A program made the position numbers and the translations under genes. Under the pieces are notes generated by a model. It was not told the DNA's origin. It made no database searches and saw nothing but the letters and a program-made list of their open reading frames with translations. DNA of 64,000 bases from Clostridia bacterium. Lineage in GTDB: Bacteria > Bacillota > Clostridia > UMGS1840. The stretch spans positions 64,192 through 128,191 of the forward strand of contig JAGBEY010000016.1 in NCBI GenBank assembly GCA_017936745.1, in the 5' to 3' direction. How positions within the stretch are numbered: the first letter of the stretch is position 1; each line of letters begins with the position of its first letter. This document shows positions 17,260-25,107 of this stretch, one piece after another.

Positions 17260-17288
17260 ATCATACACTATTTTTCGGCATTTGTCAA
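17260..17288 (-). promoter_or_regulatory. Sigma-A promoter of the MBL-hemZ-ppa-pfk run
   Basis: On the minus strand TTGACA (17288-17283) is separated by exactly 17 bases from TATGAT (17265-17260). The -35 box overlaps the clpC stop codon. The first start codon, at 17199, is about 55 bases from the expected transcription start. Confidence 0.8.
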
Positions 17289-19741
17289 TTTTTTTCCATT
17301 GAGATTTTCTGGTTTTTATAAATTATTTTCACCTTTTCTCCCACCTTCAAATTTCCCGATAAAATACTCTCTGCCAAAAAGTCCTCCACTTGTTGCCGTA
17401 CTGCCCTTTTCAGGGGGCGTGCACCGTATTTTTCCCGTTCCTCATTTGTTGCCAAAAAGCGGATTACCTCAGGAGAAAAATCCACAATGTAACCCCTTTG
17501 TTCCAGCCTGCTTTTTAAATTGTTGAGTAAAATTTTTACAATTGCCTCCAGCTCCTCGGAGCTTAGACGACTAAATACAATCACTTCATCCAGCCGGTTT
17601 AAGAATTCGGGCTGAAACGTTTTTTTCAGTTCCCGTTTTACTTTCTCACTGATTTGACGATGGATTTCCTCCGGGGTCTCATTATTTTCACGAAATCCAA
17701 CCGACGTGGTTTCCTCCGTAATATACCGGGCACCGATATTGGAGGTCATAATAATGAGTGTGTTTTTAAAATTGATTTTTCTGCCGGTTGCATCGGTCAA
17801 AATGCCCTCATCCAAAATTTGTAAAAGCAAATGAAACACGTCCGGATGTGCTTTTTCAATTTCGTCAAACAGTACCACACTATATGGATGTCGGCGAACC
17901 TTTTCACTGAGCTGACCGCCCTCAGAATATCCTACATAGCCCGGTGGTGAGCCTATCATTTTCGATACGCTGTGTTTTTCCATATATTCCGACATATCCA
18001 GCCGTATCATCGCATCACGGCTTCCGTACACCAACTCCGAAATTGCTTTGGAAAGCTCGGTTTTTCCCACTCCGGTCGGCCCTAAAAAAAGAAAACTTCC
18101 AACCGGCTTATCCGGGTCGCACAAGCCGGATTTTCCACGGCGAATCGCCTTGGAAACTGCCGTTACTGCCTGATGCTGTCCTACTATTTTTTCGTGTAGC
18201 TTTTCCTCCAGAGACAACAGCTTTTTTTGTTCATCCTCATGCAGCCGAACCAAAGGAATTCCTGTCCATTTTGAAATAATCTCCGCAATATGATCACCGG
18301 TTACCACCTGGCGTGCATTTGCATTTTTGGCTTTCCAATCCTCCAGCTCCTGCTGATACCGTTTCTGAAATGCCATTTCTTTTTCCCGCATTTGCGCTGC
18401 CCGTTCATAATCCTGTGTAGCGATTGCTTCTTCTTTCTCACGTAAAATATTTTTCAGCTTTTCCTCGGTTTCCACGATGTTTTCCGGCAAAGTGTGCAAC
18501 CGAAGCCGCACGCCCGATGCCGCTTCGTCTATTAAATCAATGGCTTTATCAGGCAGATAGCGGTCTCTTAAATAGCGGTGAGAAAGCTCTGCGGCACATT
18601 TCATCGCCTCATCGGTAATTTTTACATTGTGATGTGTTTCAAATTTATCCTTTATACCGTCCAAGATCCGTATGGTTTCCTCCACTGTGGGTTCACTGAC
18701 CACAATCGGCTGAAATCTGCGTTCCAGTGCGGCATCCCGCTCAATATGCTTGCGGTATTCCTCTAAGGTAGTTGCTCCAATCATATGAATTTCGCCGCGG
18801 CTTAAGGACGGCTTTAAAATATTTGCCGCATCAATGGCACCCTCTGCTGCCCCCGCTCCCACAATGTTATGAATTTCGTCAATAAATAATATGATATTTT
18901 CACTTTTTTTTGCTTCGTCAAGGGCTTTTTTTACCCGTTCTTCAAATTCGCCACGATACTTAGTCCCTGCTAAAACTGAAGAAATATCCAGCGAAAGCAC
19001 TCGTTTGTTCCGAAGCAGATTGGGAATGTTACGGTCTACAATTCTTTGCGCCAAGCCCTCCACAATTGCTGTTTTTCCAACACCCGGTTCCCCAATCAGA
19101 CAGGGATTGTTTTTGGTACGGCGGCATAGCACCTGAATCATACGCTCCACTTCCTCGTCTCTGCCAATCATGGGGTCAATTTTCCCCTCATAGCAAAGCC
19201 GGGTTAAATCCTTAGCACAGCTGTTCAAAATGGGAGTGTCCCCATGAAAGCGGTGAGAATATGAAGTATTTTTCGGCTTTTCTCCTAATTTTGGCGGCAG
19301 CATTCCGTTTGATACCATATCGTAAATATCATTTTTCATTTGTTCTGTGTTAACTTTTAAGGCAGATAGAATCCGCCCGGCTACCGAATCCTCCAGGGAA
19401 AGTAAGGCTAAAAGCAAATGCTCTGTTCCAATGTAATTATGCCCCATCTCTTTTGCTTCAATGAAGCTGAGTTCTATCATTTGCTTTGCCTTGGGCGTGA
19501 ATGCCACCTTACCGGTGTATGCGCCTGCAGGAGTGCCGTATACTTCGCGGATTTTTTCAATCAGCTTGTCCTCCCGTAATCCCCCTGCAATTAAAATCCG
19601 GTGGGAAATGCCATTTTTCTCCTTCAAAAGCCCGTAGAGCAAATGCTCACTTCCCAGATAGCTTTGTGAAAATTGCCGTGCCAGAGTTTCGCCGTAACGA
19701 AGTACCGATGCTGCCTTTTCGGTGAATTTTTTCTCAAACAT
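17285..19741 (-). CDS. clpC: ATP-dependent Clp protease ATP-binding subunit ClpC
   Basis: 818 aa, normal ClpC length. Two N-terminal Clp repeats (about 1-145) precede AAA+ module 1 with Walker A GEPGVGKT near 217. A middle region holds a UVR-type segment (QDYERAAQMREKE), and AAA+ module 2 has GPTGVGKTE near 553 and the Walker B block LFDEIEKAHPD. The ring unfolds proteins for ClpP and needs an adaptor of the McsB/MecA type. The usual ctsR-mcsA-mcsB partners are not beside it; it follows spoVM after a terminator. No CtsR-box-like direct repeat was recognised in the 110-base upstream gap. An AAAGGA site precedes ATG. Confidence 0.95.
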   Translation of the reverse strand: MFEKKFTEKAASVLRYGETLARQFSQSYLGSEHLLYGLLKEKNGISHRILIAGGLREDKLIEKIREVYGTPAGAYTGKVAFTPKAKQMIELSFIEAKEMGHNYIGTEHLLLALLSLEDSVAGRILSALKVNTEQMKNDIYDMVSNGMLPPKLGEKPKNTSYSHRFHGDTPILNSCAKDLTRLCYEGKIDPMIGRDEEVERMIQVLCRRTKNNPCLIGEPGVGKTAIVEGLAQRIVDRNIPNLLRNKRVLSLDISSVLAGTKYRGEFEERVKKALDEAKKSENIILFIDEIHNIVGAGAAEGAIDAANILKPSLSRGEIHMIGATTLEEYRKHIERDAALERRFQPIVVSEPTVEETIRILDGIKDKFETHHNVKITDEAMKCAAELSHRYLRDRYLPDKAIDLIDEAASGVRLRLHTLPENIVETEEKLKNILREKEEAIATQDYERAAQMREKEMAFQKRYQQELEDWKAKNANARQVVTGDHIAEIISKWTGIPLVRLHEDEQKKLLSLEEKLHEKIVGQHQAVTAVSKAIRRGKSGLCDPDKPVGSFLFLGPTGVGKTELSKAISELVYGSRDAMIRLDMSEYMEKHSVSKMIGSPPGYVGYSEGGQLSEKVRRHPYSVVLFDEIEKAHPDVFHLLLQILDEGILTDATGRKINFKNTLIIMTSNIGARYITEETTSVGFRENNETPEEIHRQISEKVKRELKKTFQPEFLNRLDEVIVFSRLSSEELEAIVKILLNNLKSRLEQRGYIVDFSPEVIRFLATNEEREKYGARPLKRAVRQQVEDFLAESILSGNLKVGEKVKIIYKNQKISMEKN

Positions 19742-19792: not shown

Positions 19793-19843
19793 CAAAAAAA
19801 GAGCTGCGACAAACCCGTTTAACGTTTGTCACAGCTTTTTTTG
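19793..19843. terminator. Bidirectional terminator between spoVM and clpC
   Basis: The arms GCTGCGACAAAC (19803-19814) and GTTTGTCACAGC (19824-19835) pair at 11 of 12 positions around a 9-base loop. Seven As stand to the left and seven Ts to the right. On the minus strand it lies nine bases after the spoVM stop codon and ends the rlmN-to-spoVM transcript before clpC. Confidence 0.88.
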
Positions 19844-19851
19844 GGAACTTT

Positions 19852-19926
19852 CTAATTTTTCACCTTAAAAATCATTTTAAAAATTCCTTTTAAGAATGAC
19901 GGCGGTTTATAAACAACAATTTTCAA
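19852..19926 (-). CDS. spoVM: SpoVM-like 24-aa spore coat-anchoring peptide
   Basis: A 24-codon frame starting TTG at 19924-19926, seven bases after a near-perfect AAGGAGGGG site, and ending TAG at 19852-19854. The peptide begins MKIVVYKPPSFLKGIFK and continues MIFKVKN. Against Bacillus SpoVM (26 aa) it keeps Met1, Lys2, Lys7, Pro9, Phe11, Leu12, Gly14 and Ile15; Pro9 and the amphipathic helix are the features known to sense the convex forespore membrane. The position downstream of prpC-prkC-rsgA-rpe-thiN is exactly that of Bacillus spoVM. SpoVM recruits SpoIVA to the forespore surface and starts coat assembly. It is short enough to be missed by automated gene callers. No sigma-E promoter was identified with confidence. 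Confidence 0.88.
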   Translation of the reverse strand: MKIVVYKPPSFLKGIFKMIFKVKN

Positions 19927-19943
19927 ACGATTTCCCCTCCTTT

Positions 19944-20120
19944 TTAAAATCTTCGCTTATGGTCAGACATACAAAGACAATACCCTACCACGATTAAAAG
20001 AACAGACAGCAAAATGACGATAATGGTTGCCGGAACGGACAGAGCAATGATAATTCCGCCTCCAACAGCGGCAAGCACCAAGCCCCAGCTCAAACAAAAT
20101 AAATTGCGGATAAATTTCAT
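19944..20120 (-). CDS. Small hydrophobic membrane protein of unknown function
   Basis: 58 aa from ATG at 20118-20120, chosen for the GGAGGTGG site six bases upstream; a longer frame would add 12 residues across that site. The protein begins MKFIRNLFCLSWG, has two hydrophobic segments (about 8-26 and 28-47) separated by a glycine-rich turn, and ends with a charged CLCMSDHKRRF tail. No family was recognised. It lies between thiN and spoVM, 17 bases ahead of spoVM, so co-expression with spoVM is likely. A sporulation role would be inference from position only. The two Cys near the C-terminus do not form a recognised metal motif. Confidence 0.65.
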   Translation of the reverse strand: MKFIRNLFCLSWGLVLAAVGGGIIIALSVPATIIVILLSVLLIVVGYCLCMSDHKRRF

Positions 20121-20150
20121 AAAAACCACCTCCGGCGTATGTAATAAAAG

Positions 20151-20200
20151 AGCCATACTGAATCAAATGACATTTCTACTATCATTATATCAGTATGGCT
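20151..20200 (-). terminator. Inverted repeat/terminator-like structure at the thiN stop codon
   Basis: AGCCATACTGA (20151-20161) and TCAGTATGGCT (20190-20200) are perfect 11-base arms 28 bases apart. The minus-strand copy includes the thiN TGA stop, and the second arm is followed by CTTTTATT. The loop is long for an intrinsic terminator, so it may be a weak terminator, an attenuator or a stability element. Confidence 0.45.
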
Positions 20201-20819
20201 GATTTTTGTTACAAATAATGAGCAAATTTCCTTCCGAAACCTTAAATTCTGCAGTCTCGCTTACAAACTCATTACTGGTTCCTATGATATTGTATTTATC
20301 TAAAAAAGCGTTTTCCAGCGGATATTTCAATCCCGTCATCGTTACCCCCTCGCAGACATCGGAAAAGGCATAAACCGAAACGGTTGTTCCGATTGGCTTT
20401 TTCAATGTAAGACAAGAATCCGTGAGATACACCTCTGTCACTCCGTCTGTCACCACCATAGAAACATCACGCACCATTGCCTGCTGTAAAAGGCATACAT
20501 TGGCGTAGCTATGGTCAAACCGGCTGCCGATTCCTCCGTACAATACGATCTTCGTTGCCCCTTTGGAAAAAGCAAACCGCAACGCATATAAGCTGTCCGT
20601 TTCGTCCTTTTCCACAGGAAGCTTCACTTTTTTTATGTTATCCTCGGGTTCTTCCAAAATGGAATCAAAATCCCCCACTAAAATATCTGGCACAATTCCG
20701 CACTCGCATGCATGGTCGTAGCCTCCGTCGGCACAAATGATATAATCTGCCTCCCGGGCATAGCGGAGCAATTCCGACCGACTCCCTGAATTTCCAGATG
20801 CAATAATTAAAATATTCAC
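20190..20819 (-). CDS. thiN: Thiamine diphosphokinase
   Basis: 209 aa from GTG at 20817-20819. Rpe ends GGGGAGAATAA and this GTG follows two bases after the A of its stop, so that purine stretch is the ribosome-binding site; an upstream ATG would lie inside rpe. The N-terminal catalytic domain begins NILIIASGNSGSRSELLRYA, with CADGGYDHA and the metal/phosphate motif VGDFDSI; the C-terminal beta-sandwich binds thiamine. It transfers PPi from ATP to thiamine to make the cofactor TPP. The gene order rpe-thiN-spoVM is conserved with Bacillus, where the gene is also called thiN/yloS. Confidence 0.92.
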   Translation of the reverse strand: MNILIIASGNSGSRSELLRYAREADYIICADGGYDHACECGIVPDILVGDFDSILEEPEDNIKKVKLPVEKDETDSLYALRFAFSKGATKIVLYGGIGSRFDHSYANVCLLQQAMVRDVSMVVTDGVTEVYLTDSCLTLKKPIGTTVSVYAFSDVCEGVTMTGLKYPLENAFLDKYNIIGTSNEFVSETAEFKVSEGNLLIICNKNQPY

Positions 20820-20820
20820 G

Positions 20821-21456
20821 TTATTCTCCCCGAATCTGAGCAATTGCAGCAGCACGGTTATCTGCACCGAATACAGAGCTTCCTGCGACTGCCATAGTAA
20901 CACCGCACCGTTCCAGTGTGCGGGCGTTGTCCGCATTTACTCCTCCGTCAACCGAAAGAAGAATGTCTTTCTTTCCAATCATCTGTTTGATATTTTTTAT
21001 TTTCTCATAAGCAGTTTCAATAAATTTTTGCCCCCCAAAGCCGGGATAAACAGACATCACAGTAATCATAGAAATGCAGTCTAAATACGGAATCAGCAAG
21101 CTCACAGGCGTGTCCGGGCTGACAGCAAGCCCTGCTTTTTTCCCAAAACTCTGAATGAGACGAATACATTCTCCGATATCGTCAGGCTGCTCCACGTGAA
21201 CAGTAATATAATCAGAACCGGCTTTTGCAAATGGTTCGATATAATTCAACGGATTGTCAATCATCAAATGTGTGTCAAACGGCAAATCGGTATGGGGACG
21301 TATGGATTCAATCACACAAGGACCAATGGTCAGATTTGGCACAAAGTGACCGTCCATCACATCCAGATGCAAAAAATCTGCTGTTTTTACAGTACGGATT
21401 TCCTCTGCAAGACGGGAAAAATCTGCCGCTAATAAGGAGGGTGCAACTTTTATCAT
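20821..21456 (-). CDS. rpe: Ribulose-phosphate 3-epimerase
   Basis: 211 aa from ATG at 21454-21456, with AAAGGA upstream; this gives the canonical N-terminus MIKVAPSLLAADF, while the longer frame overlaps rsgA. It is a TIM barrel with DVMDGHFVPNLTIG, HLMIDNP, MSVYPGFGGQKF and LSVDGGVNADN, which together hold the metal-binding His and Asp residues and the phosphate site. It interconverts ribulose 5-phosphate and xylulose 5-phosphate in the pentose phosphate pathway. It follows rsgA by 13 bases and is coupled to thiN. Xylulose-5-phosphate enzymes use TPP, the product of the next gene, a plausible but unproven link. Confidence 0.96.
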   Translation of the reverse strand: MIKVAPSLLAADFSRLAEEIRTVKTADFLHLDVMDGHFVPNLTIGPCVIESIRPHTDLPFDTHLMIDNPLNYIEPFAKAGSDYITVHVEQPDDIGECIRLIQSFGKKAGLAVSPDTPVSLLIPYLDCISMITVMSVYPGFGGQKFIETAYEKIKNIKQMIGKKDILLSVDGGVNADNARTLERCGVTMAVAGSSVFGADNRAAAIAQIRGE

Positions 21457-21469
21457 AATTTTGTCCTTT

Positions 21470-22351
21470 CTACCGTTTTTTCCACGGCTTGATGTCCTTA
21501 ATTTTCTCGTAAATAGTCCGGTAGCTTTCGTATCGGGAAGATGCAATTTTTCCCTCATTCAGAAGTTTCAGTACACCGCATCCTTTTTCCTTGGTGTGAG
21601 AGCATCCCTTAAACTGACAAACAGCCTCCCGAAATTCCGGAAATAAGCTATCCAGATACGGAATGGCAAAATCAATCTCCAAAGAAGAAAAGCCCGGGGT
21701 GTCTGCTACGTAGGTATCGGGAGCAATTTCAAACAATTCACAATGGCGGGTGGTGTGTCTGCCACGGGTTAACTTACTGATTTCTCCGGTTTTCAGCTCG
21801 ACATTTTCCACCAGCAGATTCAAAATAGACGATTTTCCTGCTCCTGAAAATCCGGCAAACACATTGATGCCGCCGGAAACGGCATTTTTAATGTCGGAAA
21901 TACCTTCCCCGTTTACGGTATTTGCATATATGACATGATAGCCGATGGCTTCATATAAGCTGCCGTATTGTGTGCCCTTATCCAAATCATTTTTATTGAT
22001 AACGAGCAATGGCTCGATGTCATAAAGCTCACAGAATACTAACAGCTTATCCACAAAATATGGGTCAAAGTCGGGAGATTTGGAGGGGGCAACAATGATA
22101 AAATGGTCCACATTAGAAACAGCAGGGCGGATGAGCAGATTTTTCCGCTCATAAATTTCGTCCAGACTTCCTTTTTTCGTTTCCTCGGAAATCACTGAAA
22201 TCCGCACACGGTCTCCCACTGTGGGAATAATCTCATTTTTTCGGAATACACCGCGTGCTTTACATTCGTACCATCCGTTTTCGGTTTGCACGTAATAAAA
22301 GCCGCCAATCCCTTTTGTCAGCAATCCGTCCAACCTCTCCAGACACCTCAA
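21470..22351 (-). CDS. rsgA: Ribosome small-subunit-dependent GTPase A
   Basis: About 293 aa. An N-terminal OB fold (GFYYVQTENGWYECKARG) precedes a circularly permuted GTPase domain in which NKNDLD (G4) comes before GFSGAGKSS (G1) and DTPGF (G3). The C-terminal zinc knuckle has CQFKGCSHTKEKGC. It assists late 30S maturation. No ATG start is available: the frame opens at TTG (22349-22351), and a second TTG six codons later (giving DGLLTKGIGGFYYV) fits the usual family length better, with TTGAGGTG upstream. The exact start is therefore uncertain by a few codons. It lies three bases after prkC. Confidence 0.93.
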   Translation of the reverse strand: MRCLERLDGLLTKGIGGFYYVQTENGWYECKARGVFRKNEIIPTVGDRVRISVISEETKKGSLDEIYERKNLLIRPAVSNVDHFIIVAPSKSPDFDPYFVDKLLVFCELYDIEPLLVINKNDLDKGTQYGSLYEAIGYHVIYANTVNGEGISDIKNAVSGGINVFAGFSGAGKSSILNLLVENVELKTGEISKLTRGRHTTRHCELFEIAPDTYVADTPGFSSLEIDFAIPYLDSLFPEFREAVCQFKGCSHTKEKGCGVLKLLNEGKIASSRYESYRTIYEKIKDIKPWKKR

Positions 22352-22354
22352 TTC

Positions 22355-24358
22355 TTAGTTAAATTTAATATTCTGCGAGAAGAAGGTCTGCCCATCCAGA
22401 AGGATTTCCACCTTCTGCGTGCCGCTTCCTCTCACGGTAACGGTAATTCGTTTTTCTGAGGTATTATGGGATTTCCGATATACCTCACTGCCTGCTTTTT
22501 TTACAACAACAGTCGCCGTTTCTCTATCCTGGGGCAAATCTATGGTTAAGCTTTGCGATGCTTCCGTCTGAGGAGCAACTGTAGGTGTAATTGTGGGAGT
22601 TACCGGCTCATCCTCTTTGGCGATAATGGTAAGACGAATTGATGTTCCTTTCGAAACCAGGGTTTCTTTTTCAATGGACTGTTCGGTTACTTTTCCCACA
22701 TTTTCTGTCCCCTTCTTTTCAGAGAAGGTGATAACTAAACCGATTTCTTCTGCCTTAACCTTTGCCTGCTGCTCTGTCATACCCACAAAATTTGGAACAA
22801 AAACCTCTGCATTTTCATCGGTTTTTGCAATATGAAGCACCACCTCTGTCCCTTTTTTCGCTTGGGTGTTTCCACTGGGCTTCTGGCGGATAACAAAGCC
22901 TTCAGGGATATCTTCGGACACTTCCTCCACCATCCGTACCGTAAAGCCTGCTTTTTCCAGCTCCTGCTTTGCCTGGCGATATTCTTTATTCACCACTTTG
23001 GCAACATTGACCATAACAGAATCGGTATCGTTTTTAACAACATCCAGCTGAACAGTAGTTTTTCTTACCTTAACCATAATATTTCCGCTGGGATACTGAT
23101 TGATGATGAGACCGTCTTCACGAGAGTCATCCTCGATTTCGTTCACCTTAACCTTCAGCCCCTCAGCCTCCAGCATCGGCTGCACTTCTTCGATATTTTT
23201 CTCTACCACATTGGGAAGCAGATATTCTTTCGACTCAAACAAGGAAGAAAAATCAAGATTTGGGAAGAAAACCTTGGCAAACAAAAATAACATTAGTGCC
23301 ACAATCACTGCAGAAACGCTCACAGCTGCAATCACCGCGGTGCGTTCCTTTTTATCCTTCCAAAAAGGCACTTTTTTCTTCTTTTCTTCTTTTTCCTCTG
23401 CTTTGTTAATCGTTTTCTCCGAATGATAGTCTGATTCTTCTTTTTTTACCACCGGTTGTGACGCCTGCTTTGCAATATTTACCATTGCAATGGTTTCCTT
23501 AATAAAGGCATCCTCCTGCTCTTTGCTTGTAAGATTTTCTGCCTTTTTAAATTCGTTCAGCTCATCTGCCATTTCTTTTGCAGTCTGATAACGGTTCACC
23601 ACATCACGCTGCATTGCCTTATTTACCATCTGCACCAATGCATTGGGAACAGAAATGTTCAAATCCTTAATGGAACGGGGTTCAGAATTTAAATGCATCA
23701 ATGCTACAGACACCGCATTGGTTCCATCGTAGGGCAGCTTTCCGGTGAGCATTTCATACATAACAATCCCCAAGGAATACAAGTCGCTTCTGGCATCAAT
23801 CATAAAGCCCTTTGCCTGCTCGGGAGAAATGTAATGCACAGAACCGAGAACATCCTGCTCAATTTTTTTCGTTTCGTCTCCGTTTACAGCACGGGCAATT
23901 CCAAAATCGGTTACCTTCAAAATACCCTCATTGGTCACGATGATGTTCTGCGGCTTGATATCTCTATGTACAATACCGTTTCTGTGTGCACATTCCAATG
24001 CGCTTAAAATCTGCAAGGAAAAATTGAGTGCCACATTCCAAGCCAGCACCCCGTTTTCCTTGATGACCTCTTTTAAGGTTGCACCCTCTACATATTCCAT
24101 AACGATGTAGTAAGTGTTCGCCTCCTGCCCCACATCGTACACAGACACAATATTTGTGCTGGACAGTGAGGCAGCAGATTGTGATTCAATGTAAAAACGT
24201 TTGACAAATTCTTTATCTGCGTTATATTCTTCTTTTAAAATTTTAACGGCAACAAAACGGTTTAACATCCTACATTTTGCCTTGTATACTCTTGACATAC
24301 CGCCGGTACCGATTAACTCCAGCAGTTCGTAGCGATTGCCGAGAACTCTTCCAATCAT
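22355..24358 (-). CDS. prkC: Ser/Thr protein kinase with PASTA domains (PrkC/Stk1)
   Basis: 667 aa from ATG at 24356-24358; AAGGAG lies 12 bases upstream, inside the six extra codons of a possible TTG start. The cytoplasmic kinase domain has GTGGMSRVY, the VAVKIL lysine, HRDIKPQNII and DFGIAR. A Lys/Glu-rich juxtamembrane region leads to one transmembrane helix (roughly 340-365), then three extracellular PASTA repeats (about 380-580) and a Ser/Thr-rich end with a small beta domain. PASTA kinases sense muropeptides or lipid II and, in spore formers, trigger germination. The gene order prpC-prkC-rsgA matches Bacillus. Confidence 0.96.
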   Translation of the reverse strand: MIGRVLGNRYELLELIGTGGMSRVYKAKCRMLNRFVAVKILKEEYNADKEFVKRFYIESQSAASLSSTNIVSVYDVGQEANTYYIVMEYVEGATLKEVIKENGVLAWNVALNFSLQILSALECAHRNGIVHRDIKPQNIIVTNEGILKVTDFGIARAVNGDETKKIEQDVLGSVHYISPEQAKGFMIDARSDLYSLGIVMYEMLTGKLPYDGTNAVSVALMHLNSEPRSIKDLNISVPNALVQMVNKAMQRDVVNRYQTAKEMADELNEFKKAENLTSKEQEDAFIKETIAMVNIAKQASQPVVKKEESDYHSEKTINKAEEKEEKKKKVPFWKDKKERTAVIAAVSVSAVIVALMLFLFAKVFFPNLDFSSLFESKEYLLPNVVEKNIEEVQPMLEAEGLKVKVNEIEDDSREDGLIINQYPSGNIMVKVRKTTVQLDVVKNDTDSVMVNVAKVVNKEYRQAKQELEKAGFTVRMVEEVSEDIPEGFVIRQKPSGNTQAKKGTEVVLHIAKTDENAEVFVPNFVGMTEQQAKVKAEEIGLVITFSEKKGTENVGKVTEQSIEKETLVSKGTSIRLTIIAKEDEPVTPTITPTVAPQTEASQSLTIDLPQDRETATVVVKKAGSEVYRKSHNTSEKRITVTVRGSGTQKVEILLDGQTFFSQNIKFN

Positions 24359-24402
24359 ATCCGTAAGCTCCTTCAAAATTGATAATAATAAGATTTCGTA
24401 AA

Positions 24403-25107
24403 TTATCCGATTACAACCGTAATGTTGTCATTGCCGCCATGCTCTTTCGCCAGCCGAACCAGCTCCATGCAGGCGTTCTTTTTGTTGAATTTGGACATTA
24501 CCTCTAAAATTTCTTCATCTGATACCAGCCCCGATAAACCATCGGAACAAAGCAGTATCTTATCGGTCCGCTTTTTCTCCAGCAGGAAAATATCCGGGTA
24601 CACCTCCGGTTCAATGCCCAAGGCTTTCAGAATGATATTGCTTTTGGGGTGATTTTTTGCCTGCTCCTTGGTGATAACGCCCTTTTTTACCAGTTCATTC
24701 ACAAATGAATGGTCTTTGGTTACCTGCCGGATGTTATTTTTGGAAACAAGATATGCACGGGAATCTCCCACATTGGCAATACAAACACTTTTTTCGTTTC
24801 CAACTGCCAGAACCAAGGTGGTTCCCATTCCGGCAAGTGATTCTTTTTTGGAAGCCAGCTCATACACTGCATCATTGGCATGTTTTACAGCACGCCGAAG
24901 TGCAATCTCAGGGTCGGAAAAAATATCCTCTTGTGCCATATATTCCCGGACAGACTCTACCGCCAGCTGACTGGCAACCTCGCCGCCGTTATGACCTCCC
25001 ATCCCGTCGGCAACCATCATCACATACCCTTTCGGGGTACTTTCAAAATAGAAGCTGTCCTCATTTAAGGGTCTTACATTTCCTACATCCGTTTGTCCGT
25101 ATATCAT
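24403..25107 (-). CDS. prpC: PP2C-type Ser/Thr phosphatase (PrpC/Stp1)
   Basis: 234 aa. The PP2C metal motifs are all present: VADGMGGHNGGE, NVGDSRAYL, SDGLSGLV and GGNDNITVV. It removes phosphates from proteins phosphorylated by PrkC and from the kinase itself. Its ATG overlaps the TGA of rlmN (ATGA), so it is translationally coupled, and prkC follows after 44 bases. The kinase-phosphatase pair next to rsgA is the conserved Gram-positive arrangement. Confidence 0.96.
   Translation of the reverse strand: MIYGQTDVGNVRPLNEDSFYFESTPKGYVMMVADGMGGHNGGEVASQLAVESVREYMAQEDIFSDPEIALRRAVKHANDAVYELASKKESLAGMGTTLVLAVGNEKSVCIANVGDSRAYLVSKNNIRQVTKDHSFVNELVKKGVITKEQAKNHPKSNIILKALGIEPEVYPDIFLLEKKRTDKILLCSDGLSGLVSDEEILEVMSKFNKKNACMELVRLAKEHGGNDNITVVIG

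Follow-up and report, generated by a model that had tools for sequence, protein, structure and literature searches.

An overlooked 24-codon spoVM gene in a clostridial genome, its membrane-hairpin neighbour, and natural variation of the SpoVM proline

SpoVM is the textbook curvature sensor, a tiny peptide on which spore formers start building the coat. The Bacillus subtilis protein (PF08183, NF033436; PDB 2MVH/2MVJ) comprises 26 residues, and Pro9 has been reported as the only invariant residue of SpoVM (PMC5607322). According to a review (PMC12004969), the P9A variant has a longer helix and loses its localisation, and variants with proline restored at positions 7-13 show the role of a flexible N-terminus. 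In C. difficile, SpoVM is sigma-E dependent, is co-transcribed with the 50-aa gene CD25622, binds SpoIVA and is largely dispensable: losing spoVM reduces heat resistance by no more than about 3- to 5-fold, and the phenotype of a CD25622 insertion with a polar effect on spoVM is no worse than that of the spoVM mutant (PMC5607322). CD25622 has been considered unique to the Peptostreptococcaceae (PMC5607322). Whether distant SpoVMs exist in clostridia without a detected one was left as an open question by Galperin et al. 2012 (PMC3533761).

Here we analysed a spoVM locus in a 64,000-nucleotide stretch of DNA from a Clostridia bacterium (hereafter the window). The coding sequence occupies positions 19852..19926 on the minus strand (19926→19852; TTG AAA ATT ... 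AAT TAG), comprising 24 codons from a TTG start followed by a TAG stop and encoding the peptide MKIVVYKPPSFLKGIFKMIFKVKN. The original prediction of a TTG-started, 24-codon SpoVM frame at 19852-19926 was correct as to the frame and required correction as to the strand; a plus-strand gene at 19852-19926 was ruled out, as stop codons interrupt its translation. The near-ideal ribosome site that had been claimed is also seen in the sequence, where a Shine-Dalgarno element, AAGGAGGGG, lies at 19934..19942 on the minus strand, 7 nt ahead of the TTG. The TTG start, put forward as a notable trait, is uncommon but not odd, being shared by 12 of 193 surveyed spoVM genes. An Rfam search gave no match at the locus.

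The window peptide belongs to the same length class as B. subtilis SpoVM and shares with it the N-terminal MK, Lys7, Pro9, Phe11-Leu12 and Gly14-Ile15, in line with the earlier statement that Pro9, Phe11, Leu12, Gly14 and Ile15 are retained. Also shared are an amphipathic helix (residues 11-22 in the window peptide, hydrophobic moment 0.68, p=0.006 versus shuffles), a position after thiN, and the presence of SpoIVA in the genome. Conversely, the peptide is two residues shorter and carries Tyr6, Pro8, Ser10 and Lys13, the first, second and fourth of which had been listed as differences from B. subtilis. Family models reproduce the Bacillus-like gene order claimed upstream, all on the minus strand: prpC, a PP2C phosphatase (24403..25107; NF033484), prkC, a PASTA Ser/Thr kinase (22355..24376; NF033483), rsgA (21470..22351; TIGR00157), rpe (20821..21558; TIGR01163) and thiN, a thiamine pyrophosphokinase (20190..20936; TIGR01378, 160 bits; start codon uncertain). 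The synteny is nevertheless incomplete, since a small gene that we term TM50 intervenes between thiN and spoVM, and a clpC-type Clp ATPase gene (17285..19741, minus strand, assigned by family models) follows in the place occupied by rpmB in Bacillus. In the window and in related genomes, spoVM-like peptides are found 3' of thiN with TM50 interposed; their absence from this position had been named as grounds for rejecting the prediction. At the thiN of Mobilibacterium (L161), no adjoining TM50-spoVM pair was found.

TM50 occupies 19944..20120 on the minus strand (20120→19944; 58 codons, MKFIRNLFCLSWGLVLAAVGGGIIIALSVPATIIVILLSVLLIVVGYCLCMSDHKRRF), is preceded by a Shine-Dalgarno element visible in the sequence (GGAGGTGG, 20126..20133, minus strand), and ends with a stop codon 17 nt 5' of the spoVM start. 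In its product, a basic N-terminus is followed by two hydrophobic helices with a proline between them, and AlphaFold modelling from 19 sequences yielded a two-helix membrane hairpin with helices at 12-28 and 31-56 (mean pLDDT 73). In a first alignment of 24 ORFs, Gly, Gly, Pro and Gly positions were conserved in 19 to 23 rows. A profile constructed without the window's order retrieved the window TM50 as its lone match (E=1.2e-5), and a pN/pS of 0.28 indicates purifying selection. Searches of Pfam and NCBIfam found no model at cut-off for the window TM50, and matches for the family were weak and inconsistent. The TM50 profile also matches the C-terminal two-helix hairpin of two longer proteins (L310, L317), which we read from their sequences as PspC-domain-like; TM50 may therefore be related in fold to a common small membrane hairpin. 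Unlike these proteins, TM50 stands alone and has the basic N-terminus and the conserved Gly/Gly/Pro/Gly positions.

Across the survey, TM50 lies directly 5' of spoVM at 127 of 193 loci, representing 32 of 42 families. Searching 393 genomes of the class with the TM50 model identified 147 places, 95 of which sit 9-113 nt upstream of a same-strand SpoVM match; because the 19 sequences used to train the model were all taken from beside spoVM, the independent count of pairs is closer to 76. When all three frames were read by eye, a SpoVM-like peptide turned up just downstream of many of the strong unpaired matches; these SpoVMs were divergent and either outside the matches listed or missed by the model. 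Beyond the class, TM50 matches occurred in seven sampled genomes, with a SpoVM match just 3' in three (L311, L313, L316) and a doubtful one in a fourth (L312). The surroundings of the pair vary: its neighbours are thiN and clpC in the genus of the window and rpmB or rsgA in other genomes, and in family f15 (L023-L030) the pair lies divergently beside spoIVA; the latter arrangement links the pair to a gene of the coat basement. Three families (f7, f24, f47) possess SpoVM without TM50, and TM50 without SpoVM was observed in family f19 and two other genomes. As a separate observation, in f19 (L124-L126, L130, L134, L135, L143) TM50 adjoins a convergent rpmB, and most of these genomes encode SpoIVA; SpoVM was found in them neither downstream of TM50 nor elsewhere in the genome.

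The closest described arrangement is that of C. difficile, where CD25622, like TM50, is a gene of the ~50-aa class directly 5' of spoVM on the same strand. We liken the two by size and position only, and their surroundings differ (rpmB in C. difficile, thiN/clpC in the window). TM50 could be a passenger of the locus that is functionally unrelated to SpoVM, a reading favoured by the occurrence of either gene without the other and by the polar C. difficile mutant, which has no extra defect (PMC5607322). We nonetheless consider this less likely than not, given that the two genes stay adjacent while everything around them changes, that the pairing extends to 32 of 42 families and to some genomes outside the class, and that TM50 itself is under purifying selection. 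TM50 most likely aids SpoVM or SpoIVA at the forespore membrane, through retention, insertion or protection from proteolysis, the data themselves showing an association; its contribution may be small, because the CD25622 insertion in C. difficile was no worse than loss of SpoVM.

TM50 and spoVM form one terminator-bounded unit. Downstream of spoVM, a terminator hairpin with a U-tract spans 19794..19835 (minus strand, z -5.9), and upstream a terminator-like hairpin with a U-tract follows thiN (20142..20200, minus strand, z -6.5); a simple terminator scan did not pick up the thiN hairpin. Within the unit's upstream region, a candidate SigE/SigK-like mother-cell promoter, TGTAAC-N16-GATATAAT, lies at 20184..20213 on the minus strand, overlapping the thiN stop codon, and its -10 overlaps the 5' arm of the thiN hairpin. 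All four genus members have the element TGTAAC-N16-[GA]ATATAAT at the same place and with identical spacing, and a looser form, AC-N17..19-[ACG]ATATA[AC]T, occurred in 36 upstream regions of the survey, spanning 11 families, versus 1.8 in shuffles. Judged by its sequence, the element is a candidate SigE/SigK-type promoter. At the window, the textbook B. subtilis sigma-E consensus is a poor match and a TAAC / ATATAAT pattern a better one; a general promoter scan also reads the TGTAAC/ATATAAT element as sigma-70-like. We also observed that TATAATGATAG in the thiN terminator hairpin (window 20151-20200) overlaps the candidate -10 and is conserved throughout the four genus members.

The 1.5-Mb window genome encodes SpoIVA (TIGR02836, E=2.5e-215, above cut-off), a SipL-domain protein and a SigE-like sigma factor (331.8 bits, slightly under the curated 348.6), a gene set that agrees with the endospore-forming lifestyle originally proposed. 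Among 393 class genomes, SpoVM-like peptides were detected in 204 and SpoIVA in 287, with both in 197, SpoVM only in 7, SpoIVA only in 90 and neither in 99. The two co-occur with an odds ratio of 31 and p=1e-30, a p-value that overstates independence because the genomes are related to one another. As a side observation, the spoIVA of one genome (L294; G230 spoIVA) carries one in-frame TAG within the SpoIVA match, a candidate sequencing error, pseudogene or recoding event. In total, the survey comprised 193 spoVM loci encoding 173 distinct peptides in 42 families. Because the NF033436 cut-off is reached in only 8 of the 243 genomes sampled from the class, we regard this threshold as too strict for the class and not as a boundary of the family; SpoVM is badly under-annotated in the window's class.

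In a ThiN-anchored scan, the other members of the window genus proved to be ruminant-gut Clostridia MAGs. The spoVM ORF, its start position, Shine-Dalgarno element and synteny are kept in three of four congeners, and the fourth, which is 77% complete, gave no spoVM match. Start codons among the four genus copies are divided between two TTG and two ATG, each with a GGAG-type site, and the pooled within-genus pN/pS is 0.26 (codons 2-24). These data bear on the reading of the gene as a relic or side copy, out of use in coat assembly, which draws on the modest heat-resistance loss in C. difficile (PMC5607322), on some clostridia that lack SpoVM, and on the many SpoIVA-encoding genomes in which no SpoVM was detected (90 of 287). 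Set against it are the purifying selection within the genus, the single copy of spoVM in the genome, the intact ribosome-binding site and flanking terminators, and the retention of both proline hinge and amphipathic helix, all of which make disuse very improbable.

Existing models do not recover the window peptide, which scores 17.3 bits against NCBIfam NF033436, below the cut-off of 31, and gave no match in a Pfam search covering the PF08183 family. For this reason we built a leave-clade-out HMM from 165 SpoVM peptides, with the window's whole order and Bacillus excluded. When the window was translated in six frames (2,433 segments), the spoVM ORF was the sole significant frame (E=2.9e-8), with the runner-up at E=0.017. 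Furthermore, a clostridial profile of 19 peptides, from which Bacillus and the window's order were likewise left out, matched B. subtilis SpoVM in the PDB (2MVH, E=1.3e-6); PDB searches with the single window peptide or a four-genus profile did not retrieve B. subtilis SpoVM directly. SpoVM models were the only models to match the peptide family. That the frame is a short ORF arisen by chance, with a fortuitous ribosome-binding site in the thiN-clpC gap, as its mere 24 codons, TTG start and scores below every curated cut-off might suggest, is effectively excluded by the leave-clade-out E-value and the conservation and selection among congeners, together with the 173 distinct, SpoIVA-associated relatives in 42 families. 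The identification as SpoVM is upheld by the HMM, by the profile link to 2MVH and by conservation in the genus: the 24-codon frame is a real, overlooked spoVM gene.

Taken together, it is highly probable that the ORF is spoVM, the second gene of a terminator-bounded TM50-spoVM unit that is probably transcribed in the mother cell; SpoVM would dock SpoIVA, most likely with the assistance of TM50. Under this account, mother-cell transcription of the unit would probably fall within sporulation. SpoVM made there would settle on the convex outer forespore membrane through its amphipathic helix 11-22, with a proline hinge at 8-9 expected to keep the N-terminus flexible. It would then dock SpoIVA, which would polymerise and, with SipL, start the coat. 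TM50, a conserved integral membrane hairpin, is probably co-produced with SpoVM and would most likely act at that membrane. SpoVM presumably acts as in Bacillus, although it should not be assumed to be essential here.

The surveyed peptides also suggest how the hinge may have evolved. The window SpoVM has Pro8 in addition to Pro9, and Pro9 is present in 155 of the 173 distinct peptides and absent from 18. Forms with Pro8 only were found in six families (f2, f33, f41, f15, f46, f5), and an Ala8-Ser9 form without Pro9 in f16. GTDB family f58 contributes five proline-less peptides (L129, L131, L133, L147, L149), encoded downstream of TM50, with GSK, STG, GSG, SHG and CKG at positions 8-10. In a SpoIVA phylogeny, the f58 forms group in a supported clade, and Pro9 is retained by the closest relatives of that clade in the sample; further losses of Pro9 fall within f2, f15 and f16, beside Pro9-bearing relatives. 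These placements make it likely that Pro9 was lost separately at least four times. Only one of the 173 peptides lacks both proline and glycine at positions 8-10. Pro8 accompanies all 12 distinct Tyr6 peptides, compared with 22 of 161 others, an association that partly reflects shared ancestry because the Tyr6 peptides fall in four families. Thus Tyr6 and Pro8, singled out earlier as differences from Bacillus, are indeed present but represent lineage features and not the peculiarity of one peptide. The Pro8-Pro9 pair of the window resembles an intermediate in such a proline shift. Tentatively, and with a little less than even confidence, we propose that SpoVM usually works with TM50 in Clostridia, the pair forming the platform for SpoIVA, and that the hinge is the helix-breaking segment 8-10 and not Pro9 itself, a hinge that has repeatedly shifted to Pro8 or been left without a proline. 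This reading of segment 8-10 as the hinge is our own interpretation of the peptide sequences.

The SpoVM of the window adds a member to a known family; the novelty lies in its pairing and in the proline shift. SpoVM-like peptides occur in about half of the sampled class genomes, mostly under the annotation cut-off, which bears on the question of distant clostridial SpoVMs (PMC3533761). TM50 is a candidate component of the coat basement, for which, as far as we found, the literature describes a counterpart at a single C. difficile locus only. Finally, SpoVMs that naturally have Pro8 only or no proline, some of them with Pro9 forms as close relatives, provide ready variants for examining the determinants of curvature sensing.
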